Assembly (NCBI GenBank): GCA_003281635.1
Contig: QCBK01000008.1
Location: forward strand, 1 to 62,570
Direction: 5' to 3'
Length of the DNA stretch: 62,570 nt
From: Prochlorococcus sp. AG-347-G22
GTDB lineage: Bacteria; Cyanobacteriota; Cyanobacteriia; PCC-6307; Cyanobiaceae
Shown piece by piece: positions 27,032 through 32,109 of the stretch. The notes beneath the pieces were generated by a model. The model was not told where the DNA came from and did not search any database. It worked only from the letters and a program-made list of their open reading frames with translations. A program made the translations under genes and the position numbers. Within the stretch, counting starts at the first letter, position 1. Every line of letters starts with the position of its first letter.

Positions 27032-27343
27032 CTAATTATTTTCTTTCTCTTCTTTTTCTTCTTTTTCGATGGTGAAAGAGTTAATAAAAAGCCTTATACC
27101 AATGATGAAAAATGTAATGGAAGCTATTGACTTAAGAACTACTTCGGGTAAAAAACTTGAAATAGAACCACCTGTTAAAGCTCCTAGTAAACTTGCAAAA
27201 ACAAGTGCTGAAGAAGATCCTAAAAAAACTGCTAATGGTTTATTTGAAGTGCCACTTATAGTTAAAGTAGCTAGTTGAGTTTTGTCACCTAATTCAGCTA
27301 TGAAAACGGTTAGAAATGTTGATAGTAATAAACTTAAAACCAT
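27032..27343 (-). CDS. Mnx/GDT1 (UPF0016) manganese exporter, half-protein 2
   Basis: 103 residues with three predicted helices and one signature motif, FIAELGDKTQLATL. UPF0016 proteins (plant GDT1/PAM71, human TMEM165, cyanobacterial Mnx) normally carry two copies of ExGD(K/R)(T/S) in one chain and move Mn out of the cytosol. Here the two halves are separate genes: the stop codon of the first (TAA) is directly followed by the ATG of this one. The C-terminus is a short Glu/Lys run. The likely product is a heterodimer that protects against Mn overload or supplies Mn to photosystem II. Confidence 0.87.
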   Translation of the reverse strand: MVLSLLLSTFLTVFIAELGDKTQLATLTISGTSNKPLAVFLGSSSALVFASLLGALTGGSISSFLPEVVLKSIASITFFIIGIRLFINSFTIEKEEKEEKENN

Positions 27344-27670
27344 TTAAAAATAATTTTTGAATGTTTCATAAGCTAAAAATATACTTATAAATATCATTAA
27401 AGTACCAGTAGATAAAGCAAATTTTCTAGGAGATATTTTTTTTGATACCCATTTACCAATAAGAACTCCTACTATGCTAGAACTTATTAATGCTAGAGAA
27501 CTTCCAAGAAAAACAACTATTGGCCTACCCGATTCGGCAGAAAGCATTAATGTTGCTATTTGAGTTTTATCGCCAAGTTCAGCAATAAAAATTGTTGTAA
27601 AAGTCGTTATAAATATTGAAAAAAAACTTTTTTCTAAATTGTTTTCTTTTTTTTCTAATTTACTATTCAT
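27344..27670 (-). CDS. Mnx/GDT1 (UPF0016) manganese exporter, half-protein 1
   Basis: 108 residues, homologous to the next gene downstream, with the motif FIAELGDKTQIATL in the first helix and VFLGSSLALISSSIVGVLIG in the second. Its start overlaps the stop of the YkgJ-like gene by 4 bases, and its stop abuts the ATG of the second half, so all three are probably translated from one mRNA. The motif pair suggests cation/proton exchange. A role in Mn handling is inferred from the family. Confidence 0.87.
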   Translation of the reverse strand: MNSKLEKKENNLEKSFFSIFITTFTTIFIAELGDKTQIATLMLSAESGRPIVVFLGSSLALISSSIVGVLIGKWVSKKISPRKFALSTGTLMIFISIFLAYETFKNYF

Positions 27671-28096: not shown

Positions 28097-28174
28097 ATGG
28101 CAACACTTATTCCTTTGGCTGTAGTTGCGTTAGCAGGACCAGCAATAATTGCTCTTGTTTTTTACCGCAAATAA
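28097..28174 (+). CDS. psb30: photosystem II protein Psb30 (Ycf12)
   Basis: This is a 25-residue single-helix protein: MATLIPLAVVALAGP then AIIALVFYRK. The core AGPxxIxLxxxR matches Psb30/Ycf12, a peripheral one-helix subunit of photosystem II near cytochrome b559. Other cyanobacterial versions are longer (about 33-46 residues), so this is a short form. It lies beside the Mn transporter genes on the opposite strand and 12 bases before the HAD gene. It is too short to stand on coding statistics; the call rests on the motif, ATG start and clean stop. Confidence 0.75.
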   Translation: MATLIPLAVVALAGPAIIALVFYRK

Positions 28175-29267: not shown

Positions 29268-29438
29268 CTACTCTTCTTCTTCTTCCTCAATAGGATAAAC
29301 AAATCCTTGAGCTTTCCCAGTTAAAACTGATTTACCTAAAGATATAGCTTTTTGAGCTGCTATTGCTGCTTTTCCTTTCCAAACAGCGTGCCTTTGGTTC
29401 CTTTTGCTCTTTGATTTTTTCTTCTTTGGTACAGCCAT
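29268..29438 (-). CDS. rpmF: 50S ribosomal protein L32
   Basis: 56 residues. The N-terminus [20 protein letters not shown] is a standard cyanobacterial L32 start, followed by [20 protein letters not shown] and an acidic end of six glutamates. The zinc-binding cysteines found in some bacterial L32 proteins are absent, as usual for cyanobacteria. It is a single gene convergent with ycf20 and about 130 bases from the divergent FtsH homologue. Confidence 0.95.
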
Positions 29439-29569
29439 TCTGTTTCTTTATTTCCATATAATAATATAACCTTTAACTGGTTATCTCCAAAACTTTTTAG
29501 TATATTTTGTTTATATACGTCAATTTTTTAAATAAGCATATATGCTTTATTAATCACTTATAAAGATTA

Positions 29570-31324
29570 GTGTTTAGATCAAAATTCTCATATTCAGATT
29601 CTAAATCAAGTTATTCGGATCTTCTAGAAGATATAGAGACGGGGAAAATAGAATCAATATTTTTCTATCCAAGGCAGAGAGAAATTGATGTTCTGTATAA
29701 AAATGGAGATAAATTTAAAATACCTATCCTTTACAACGATCAATTAATCCTTGAAAAGGCTACTGAAAATAGGGTAGATCTAACTATTAACAATAGTAGA
29801 AAAGAAGCCTCAGCTGCTAATTCATTCGCTTCAATAAGTCTTTTTCTGATTTTCATATTAGCTATAGTCTTAATCTTGAGGAGTACATCAAAATTGGCCT
29901 CTAGAGCTTTTGGTTTTACCAAAAATCAATCTAAATTTGTAACTATTGATGATGTAGAAACGAGATTCGATGATGTAGCTGGCGTCCCTGAAGCCGCAGA
30001 GGAATTAAAAGAGGTAATAACATTTTTGAAAGAACCAAAGAAATTTGAAAATCTTGGAGCGAAAGTTCCTAAGGGAGTTCTTCTAATAGGCCCACCAGGG
30101 ACAGGAAAAACATTATTAGCTAAAGCAATTGCTGGTGAATCAGGAGTACCTTTTCTCTCAATATCGGCTTCAGAGTTTGTAGAACTTTTTGTTGGTGTTG
30201 GAGCAAGCCGAGTTCGTGATCTGTTCTCTAAGGCCAAGGAAAAATCTCCTTGTATAATTTTTATTGATGAAATTGATTCCATTGGTAGGCAAAGAGGTTC
30301 TGGGATCGGAGGTGGAAATGATGAAAGAGAACAAACCCTTAATCAGCTTCTAACTGAATTAGATGGTTTTGCTGATAATTCTGGGATTATTGTTTTAGCA
30401 GCAACAAATAGACCAGATATTTTGGATGCAGCATTATTAAGACCAGGTAGATTTGATAGGAAAATTGAAGTAATGCTTCCAGATTTAGATGGAAGAAAAA
30501 AAATTCTTTCAGTTCACTCACTTTCCAAACCACTTTCAAGCGAGGTTGACTTAGGATATTGGGCTTCTAGAACAGTCGGATTTTCCGGAGCAGATCTTGC
30601 AAACTTGATGAACGAGAGTGCTATCCACTGTGCAAGAGACGAATCTAAATTAATCAATGATCTTCATATAGAAAATGCACTTGATAAAATTACCATTGGC
30701 TTGAGAAGTTCATTAATAACTTCTCCTAATATGAAAAAAATTATTGCTTATAACGAAGTAGGTAGAGCAATTGTATCTGCTGTTAGAAATGGAATTGAAT
30801 CAGTTGATAAAATTACGATTTTACCTAGATCTGGATCTATAGGAGGATATACAAAAATATGCCCTGACGAAGATGTAATTTCTAGTGGATTGATTTCAAA
30901 AAAATTATTATTTTCAAAAATTGAAATTGCTCTAGCTGGAAGAGCAGCAGAAACGATAGTTTTTGGTGAAGGTGAAATTACACAATGCTCCATAAATGAT
31001 ATCTCTTATGCGACAAATATCGTAAGGGAAATGGTTACAAAATATGGATTTTCAATTATTGGTCCAATTTCAATGGACTCTGATAATAATGAAATGTATT
31101 TAGGAGATGGATTATTTAGAAGAAAGCCTCTTATAGCAGAAAATACCAGTTCTAGAATAGATAATGAAATCATAAATATTTCTAAAATTTCATTAAATAA
31201 TTCAATAAAAATATTGAAAAAAAATAGAGTCTTACTTGATAAATTAGTTGATATACTTTTAAATCAAGAAACTATAGATAAAAAAGTTTTTAAATTAACA
31301 ACTTCTAAATTGTTGAAAGTTTGA
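29570..31324 (+). CDS. FtsH homologue lacking the zinc protease site
   Basis: 584 residues. The AAA+ motor looks functional: Walker A GPPGTGKT (174-181), Walker [10 protein letters not shown], and second region of homology [20 protein letters not shown] with both arginines. The M41 protease motif HExxH is replaced by NEVGR (395-399), so both His zinc ligands are gone; the third ligand Asp in SINDIS remains. The N-terminus is also unusual: only one membrane helix (about 86-105) is present, and the usual first helix is missing. An in-frame TAA just upstream rules out a longer start; GTG at 29570 is used. Chloroplast FtsHi proteins are similarly inactive as proteases and act in import or assembly complexes. 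Its partner is unknown. Confidence 0.93.
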
Positions 31325-31356: not shown

Positions 31357-32109
31357 TTGATAATTAAAAACAATACATCGAAGTTATTAGTTACAATTTC
31401 ATTTTTACTTATTCTTCCATTTGTACAAAAACAATGGTTTAATTTGTATTCACTCAATATTAATGATATTTCCTTTTATTTAATCCTTTACTATTTGAGC
31501 GGAGCAATATGTCCATCTTTGGTGTATATGAACTCTTTAAAAAACTATACAGATTATAGTTTTACTAAGGATAAAATCGATAGTAAAAAAATAATTAAAG
31601 GAAAAAGATTATTATTCTTAGTAGCAATAAATTTAATATTTCTCTCTTTCTTAATAGCTGATTATATATATATAAATTTTGATCTTATAAATAATTTATT
31701 TCTTGTAGGAATTAATGTCCTAAAACCGGATATTCCACAGTTATGTTTTTTCATATTTTTAATTTCTATCCTATTAATTTTTAAGAAATCTAGGTTTCTT
31801 TTAAAAAAAATAATATTGGTAAATTTTATTTTGATTTCTCTCTATCTTTGGCATCTTCAAATTATTAATATTAGTGTTGATGATCAGTTTCATATTTATA
31901 GATATTTTGGTTTAAATGACCTAAATTTAATTAATATTTTTTTCCTAGTCGCAATAGAAATTTCTTTTTATACGTGGTCCTTTTTATCATATAAAACTAA
32001 TTTGAGCGATTGGATCGTGCCCAAACCTCAAAAAGGGGATCTTATCCCCTTTTTGAATATATTTATTTTTTATTTTTTTATAATTATTTACTACTCATTA
32101 CTTACTTAA
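31357..32109 (+). CDS. multi-helix membrane protein, unknown
   Basis: 250 residues with about six or seven hydrophobic segments (for example FYLILYYLSGAICPSLVYMN and LLFLVAINLIFLSFLIADYI) and short basic loops. I recognise no family. The start is TTG, 32 bases after the FtsH homologue, so it could share its transcript. The codons near residues 225-233 (KPQKGDLIPF) are made of a perfect 12-bp terminator hairpin (32029-32055), which probably serves the convergent peroxiredoxin gene. The end of this protein may therefore be poorly transcribed or recently extended. Confidence 0.7.
   Translation: MIIKNNTSKLLVTISFLLILPFVQKQWFNLYSLNINDISFYLILYYLSGAICPSLVYMNSLKNYTDYSFTKDKIDSKKIIKGKRLLFLVAINLIFLSFLIADYIYINFDLINNLFLVGINVLKPDIPQLCFFIFLISILLIFKKSRFLLKKIILVNFILISLYLWHLQIINISVDDQFHIYRYFGLNDLNLINIFFLVAIEISFYTWSFLSYKTNLSDWIVPKPQKGDLIPFLNIFIFYFFIIIYYSLLT
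32029..32055 (-). terminator. Rho-independent terminator for the peroxiredoxin gene, inside a coding region
   Basis: A perfect 12-bp stem (left arm 32029-32040, right arm 32044-32055) with a 3-base CTT loop and arms of five A/T pairs next to a G4/C4 core. On the minus strand it ends in TTTTT, 70 bases after the peroxiredoxin stop, so it fits that gene. It also has a T-run on the plus strand and could act both ways. It lies wholly inside the 31357-32109 coding frame. Confidence 0.8.

Follow-up and report, generated by a model that had tools for sequence, protein, structure and literature searches.

What remains for an FtsH protein to do when its AAA+ motor is kept and the zinc site of its peptidase domain is gone? 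The question is raised by a gene of Prochlorococcus sp. AG-347-G22 that lies at positions 29570 to 31324 of the forward strand (1755 bases, 584 codons, GTG start) of the window, the whole stretch of 62,570 nucleotides that was analysed. The gene is an orthologue of FtsH1, a protein called “FtsH4” in Prochlorococcus, and its product comprises FtsH_ext (residues 14-72, 29609 to 29785; 26.5 bits in Pfam, cut-off 25.5), an AAA domain with its lid, and Peptidase_M41 (residues 384-574, 30719 to 31291; profile score 151.7 bits, cut-off 29.9), Pfam finding no added domain. Alignment locates Walker A (GPPGTGKT, residues 174-181, 30089 to 30112), the pore loop (FVELFVGVG, residues 203-211, 30176 to 30202), Walker B (IIFIDEID, residues 229-236, 30254 to 30277) and the arginine fingers (LRPGRFDR, residues 290-297, 30437 to 30460), all of them intact, as an earlier note on this DNA had stated for the Walker motifs and the fingers. 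In an alignment with the FtsH of T. maritima (2ce7), the HEAGH motif of the latter falls on NEVGR (residues 395-399, 30752 to 30766) and the Asp of its ANDI stretch, the third zinc ligand, falls on Asp477 (30998 to 31000), so that two of the three ligands are lost and one is left; the absence of both His ligands, read earlier from the letters, is confirmed by this comparison. FtsH proteins are further recognized by two N-terminal transmembrane helices, of which this one has a single member, with none before the ext domain; its position at approximately residues 86-105 (29825 to 29884) agrees with hydrophobicity and with a modelled helix spanning residues 77-113. The source assembly, approximately 85% complete, holds four M41 genes, and the other three keep HExxH. 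Sequencing error or chance was rejected as the origin of NEVGR because N-E-x-G-R is found in 29 of 29 HL sequences of the tree described below (28 NEVGR, one NEGGR), and a frameshift or wrong start that would restore HExxH or the first helix was rejected because the HL orthologues agree; three further HL loci kept out of the tree (L061-L063) also read NEVGR.

A tree built from 139 FtsH sequences places the gene with the FtsH1 of its family, a group whose neighbours are outgroup FtsH1 and FtsH2 and which stands apart from FtsH3 and FtsH4; the gene is also separate from the FtsH2, FtsH3 and FtsH4 of its own genome. The FtsH1 name was taken from two papers (PMC6300248, PMC11262661), Slr1390 itself being absent from the trees. 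A passage of Bonisteel et al. equates the picocyanobacterial FtsH4 with FtsH1 (Slr1390) of Synechocystis PCC 6803 and regards this correspondence as less evident than the other three pairings (PMC6300248), and Prochlorococcus FtsH4 is likewise placed with Slr1390 in part of a second study (PMC11262661); a protein of MIT 9515 with 84% identity to the present one bears the FtsH4 name. Synechocystis FtsH1 is described as type B, as is FtsH2, and as forming a complex with FtsH3 (PMC9020784), with which it is also said to occur in a section of another paper (PMC4949578), while FtsH1/3 is given as essential in that organism (PMC11287208). The Prochlorococcus protein resembles Slr1390 in its published orthologous group, in its AAA+ plus M41 layout and in the presence of a zinc-site-bearing FtsH3, but it is devoid of the zinc site and of the N-terminal signal-like helix, and its membership of a complex is only predicted.

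The genes around FtsH1 are consistent with this assignment, HAD and/or DUF565 being matched beside most of the loci compared; no such match was seen at L047, L159, L054 and L057, and the short locus L143 gave a peroxiredoxin only. HAD and DUF565 (ycf20-type) genes upstream of FtsH1 are common to intact and dead relatives. In the window, the psb30, ycf20 and Mn exporter genes that the earlier note had listed as neighbours do adjoin FtsH1, in the form of psb30/Ycf12, DUF565 (the ycf20 family) and two GDT1 genes. The GDT1 pair (27032 to 27670, reverse strand) consists of adjacent genes of 103 and 108 amino acids with one GDT1 domain each, which together represent an Mn exporter-type protein divided between two genes of half size, and the PSII_Ycf12 match (psb30) lies in a 25-amino acid frame (28097 to 28174, forward strand) whose score narrowly exceeds the Pfam cut-off and falls short of that of NCBIfam. 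Between DUF565 and FtsH1 lies a gene for ribosomal protein L32, on the opposite strand (29268 to 29438) and previously unmentioned. Directly 3' of FtsH1 there is a membrane-like frame of 250 amino acids (31357 to 32109, forward strand) with no Pfam or NCBIfam match, present in five HL loci and unmatched in the other dead-site lineages.

Among 157 genomes matched, 69 were opened; four g71 genomes (G095, G125, G185 and G199) matched but were left out, and only L061-L073 and L077 were used from one set of 80 loci. The zinc site is kept in none of the 49 FtsH1 sequences of what is here called the dead group, which spans seven genera (HL, SS120, MIT9211 and NATL2A types) and is made up of 29 HL sequences and 20 from six other genera. 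HExxH and the Asp are kept in 35 of 35 other family FtsH1, in 46 of 46 other FtsH and in all nine outgroup sequences taken as FtsH1, one of which (L033) branches towards FtsH2. A further 20 family loci, scored for the motif only, also keep HExxH, as does the partial L163 (HEVGH); in all, the motif is kept in the 56 other family FtsH1 that reach it and in 55 other FtsH. Besides L061-L063, the partial L163, L166 (cut before the motif), L191-L194 and L197 (copies) and L152 (a 2-base placeholder) were excluded from the tree. In G215, FtsH1-like fragments lie at contig ends, and in G078 one TAA was counted within the match, its own frame being open for 581 codons and the stop taken as lying just upstream. 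The FtsH1 of L196 (G042, genus-19, a single-contig genome of 1.8 Mb) is extremely diverged, with a branch of 1.31 and the motif RNASK, although its frame of 574 codons is still full-length.

The motif takes many forms in the dead group: NEVGR, NEGGR, NEVGK, NEAGK (the form of G049, presumably strain SS120), NEIGR, NEIGI and YEIGR, and also HEIGK, HQIGK, HEAGR, QIIGK, QQVGR, RESAR and RNASK. The second His is lost in 49/49 and the first in 41/49, the first position (395) being N, H, Q, R or Y, while at position 399 there are 34 Arg, 14 Lys and one Ile (basic in 48/49). In a set of 15 lineage representatives, 14 have a basic residue at 399 and two have one at 395, with a P of 2e-5 that serves as a guide only because the lineages are related. 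Every one of the 48 sequences with a basic 399 carries D, E, N or Q at residue 477, and the lone Ile399 pairs with His477. That D477 is kept in 38/49 and E396 in 41/49 could be taken to mean that FtsH1 still cuts, whether through a metal site that has moved or is unusual or through a different nucleophile; set against the His losses, and against the absence of any His among the 15 M41 columns that are invariant across dead and intact representatives, this reading is barely credible. The Walker A Lys/Thr and Walker B Asp/Glu are present in all 49 dead sequences. A rare change of the second Walker A residue was seen in one locus of each type (GSPGTGKT in L143, dead; GLPGTGKT in L154, intact).

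The variety of these motifs might suggest several independent losses. In the 139-sequence tree, built on AAA plus M41, all dead sequences form one group (aLRT 98.9), as do 27 of 27 in a tree of full-length FtsH1 (99.1/100). The organism tree was represented by RpoB, which is independent of FtsH and was usable in 28 of 30 genomes. Its protein tree places the 17 dead-site genomes together and apart from 11 intact ones (97.8/100), and its codon positions 1+2 give the same grouping (99.4/100) with the intact G045 as sister (95.7/98). In an AAA-only tree, by contrast, the dead sequences are not one group, the intact L059 lying among them with low support (41.9/51); supports of the full-length, AAA-only and RpoB trees were read by bipartition from unrooted trees. 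The full-length FtsH1 and both RpoB trees make several losses less likely, and because these trees group the dead-site lineages, the zinc site was likely lost once, in their common ancestor. One old clade of NEVGR-type losses, which the earlier note had asked about, finds support in the FtsH1 and RpoB trees and none in the AAA-only tree.

The missing first helix has a different distribution. In the source genome, an in-frame TAA (29561 to 29563) lies shortly before the start, and therefore no upstream helix is readable in that frame; none was found upstream in 28 other HL loci. By a hydrophobicity threshold, a stretch before the ext domain is absent from all 49 dead sequences and also from 34 of 35 intact family FtsH1, the sole exception (L161) having its stretch in an unverified upstream extension. 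Such a stretch is present in 46 of 46 other FtsH and in seven of nine outgroup cyanobacterial FtsH1, where it looks like a cleavable signal peptide because A-x-A-like sites come next. The observation that an N-terminal helix is missing was correct, and its tie to the zinc-site loss was not: since intact relatives are also without it, the helix was likely lost separately, earlier and for another cause. The history proposed here begins with an early loss of the first helix or signal in the family; a single loss of the zinc site would have followed in the ancestor shared by the HL, NATL2A, SS120 and MIT9211 type lineages. A mature plant thylakoid FtsH, according to one published passage, may also carry a single helix (PMC9020784).

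Is the gene simply on its way to being lost, its decay tolerated since FtsH2, FtsH3 and FtsH4 do what it once did? It is the fastest-evolving of the four FtsH of its genome (dN of 0.113 against 0.047, 0.023 and 0.023 for the others, own genome versus MED4), and positions 395, 396 and 477 drift. A passage on MED4 in low light describes an ftsH transcript pool balanced among annotated isoforms 1-3 (PMC6300248), which points to a low transcript share for the isoform named FtsH4, so that it seems a minor one; only FtsH1-3 appear in a figure on an ocean metaproteome (PMC11262661). FtsH1 was also unidentified in 29 of 44 genomes of one set, most of them 53-89% complete, and three HL genomes (G011, G016, G018; 65-83% complete) gave no orthologue. 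Against decay stand the pooled dN/dS values (Nei-Gojobori, pairs not independent): among 23 HLII sequences AAA has 0.039 and M41 has 0.115, and among six HLI sequences the two domains have 0.055 and 0.159, a range of 0.04-0.16 by domain. The motor is under strong purifying selection and the peptidase domain is looser; the dN/dS check on the motor that had been proposed beforehand, at 0.039-0.055, reveals no relaxed selection across it. No interruption of the frame was seen in any of the 12 single-contig dead-site genomes opened, and each of the 28 other HL loci likewise has a full-length open frame, although a contig end truncates one of these. Gene loss is unsupported in the three most complete genomes without FtsH1, which were the ones checked, with G042 as positive control: in G065 and G112 the neighbouring HAD gene was not found either, and in G222 it lies at a contig end. 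Among the genomes opened, no closed one was seen in which the flanking genes abut with no FtsH1 between them. Taken with these observations, decay is decidedly improbable. Columns invariant in 31 intact representatives remain invariant in 14 dead ones in 95 of 126 cases for AAA and 15 of 40 for M41 (P=1.9e-5), and the M41/AAA distance ratio is 2.73 in the dead group and 2.01 in the intact family, a measure that alone proves little because the outgroup reaches 3.65. These comparisons speak in part for a general relaxation of M41 in the dead group.

The reading that we favour, and consider rather probable, is that FtsH1 serves a mixed ring as a subunit that unfolds without cutting, all of the cutting being left to its partner FtsH3. 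FtsH1 would be anchored N-out/C-in through its one helix; alternating with FtsH3 in the manner of the FtsH1/3 complex of Synechocystis, it would leave the ring with three working peptidase sites rather than six, and it would hydrolyse ATP, membrane and regulatory proteins being threaded through the shared pore. The Lys/Arg at 399 may replace the charge of the zinc through a salt bridge to residue 477 and so keep the metal-free M41 domain folded. FtsH3 retains HEAGH in all 23 dead-site genomes in which it was found, 24 having been searched, with no match at 1e-230 in G155. One review passage indicates that inactivation of the type-B protease is tolerated in PSII repair and that of the ATPase is not (PMC9020784). 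Pairing with FtsH3 is a prediction carried over from Synechocystis. The fast evolution of FtsH1, its less conserved M41 columns and its apparently low expression weigh against this reading, as does the fact that an 85-residue tail would have to be inserted N-out by a protein with a single helix and without a signal. In the earlier note a regulatory subunit of a mixed ring had been proposed alongside an assembly factor; placement near type-B FtsH, published orthology and an active FtsH3 in 23 of 24 genomes favour the former, and the latter gained no support of its own. FtsH1 could instead form a homo-hexamer that acts as a pure membrane unfoldase or dislocase, assembling or extracting membrane proteins in the absence of proteolysis. 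The motor motifs conserved throughout the dead group and the looser M41 would suit such a ring, the missing first helix could set FtsH1 apart from FtsH3, and chloroplasts have FtsH-type rings with dead subunits, Ycf2-FtsHi motor chains being among the best structural matches. The occurrence of Synechocystis FtsH1 with FtsH3 and the lack of an added domain render the homo-hexamer unlikely; the M41 fold is under purifying selection, which ring packing would explain equally in either ring.

Comparable systems are known from plants. FtsHi1-5 of Arabidopsis (the FtsH12/FtsHi/Ycf2 motor) share the FtsH fold, the lost HExxH and the kept AAA+ motifs, and the parallel drawn previously stands as a functional likeness, not as a claim of descent; there is no import complex here, and the Prochlorococcus loss sits within the FtsH1 group. 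Zinc-site mutants of Arabidopsis FtsH2 (type B) are reported to rescue var2 (Zhang 2010, via passages in PMC9020784 and PMC6019477), and are likewise type-B subunits without peptidase activity working in a mixed ring, but they are laboratory products in a thylakoid complex, whereas the state of Prochlorococcus FtsH1 is natural and fixed. For cyanobacteria, one passage reports a presumed inactive FtsH in Prochlorococcus marinus SS120 and none in chlorophyll-a cyanobacteria (PMC6460958), and a review repeats the SS120 case (PMC8197885). The presumed FtsHi of SS120 is very likely the same gene as FtsH1 (G049, NEAGK). In their accessible portions, these reports cover one strain, without the FtsH1 identity, the placement of the loss, a selection test or the missing helix (PMC6460958, PMC8197885), and no other paper on an inactive Prochlorococcus or cyanobacterial FtsH was found in the open-licence full-text literature, as far as its accessible portions go. 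Relative to that literature, several points appear to be new: the FtsH1 identity, how far the loss extends, its likely single origin, the fixation of Lys/Arg, the selection profile and the sequence in which helix and zinc site were lost.

Automatic annotation still names the dead-site FtsH1 a zinc metalloprotease (NCBIfam calls the present frame ATP-dependent zinc metalloprotease FtsH, with 645.8 bits against a cut-off of 600), and a published table assigns it the FtsH1 function unchanged (PMC11262661). Although FtsH1 is described as essential in a model cyanobacterium (PMC11287208), many lineages of Prochlorococcus, which is stated to dominate open-ocean phytoplankton by number (PMC5271679), have lost its peptidase site. 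It is conceivable, if on balance doubtful, that many Prochlorococcus carry a half-armed or wholly unarmed FtsH ring, in which Lys/Arg would stand in for zinc, a once essential protease would have become an unfoldase and zinc would be spared in zinc-poor water. If FtsH1 is indeed a non-cutting subunit, the state produced in plant type-B mutants would exist in Prochlorococcus as a natural and fixed one, and the number of working sites that an AAA protease ring requires could be studied with the close intact relatives as controls.
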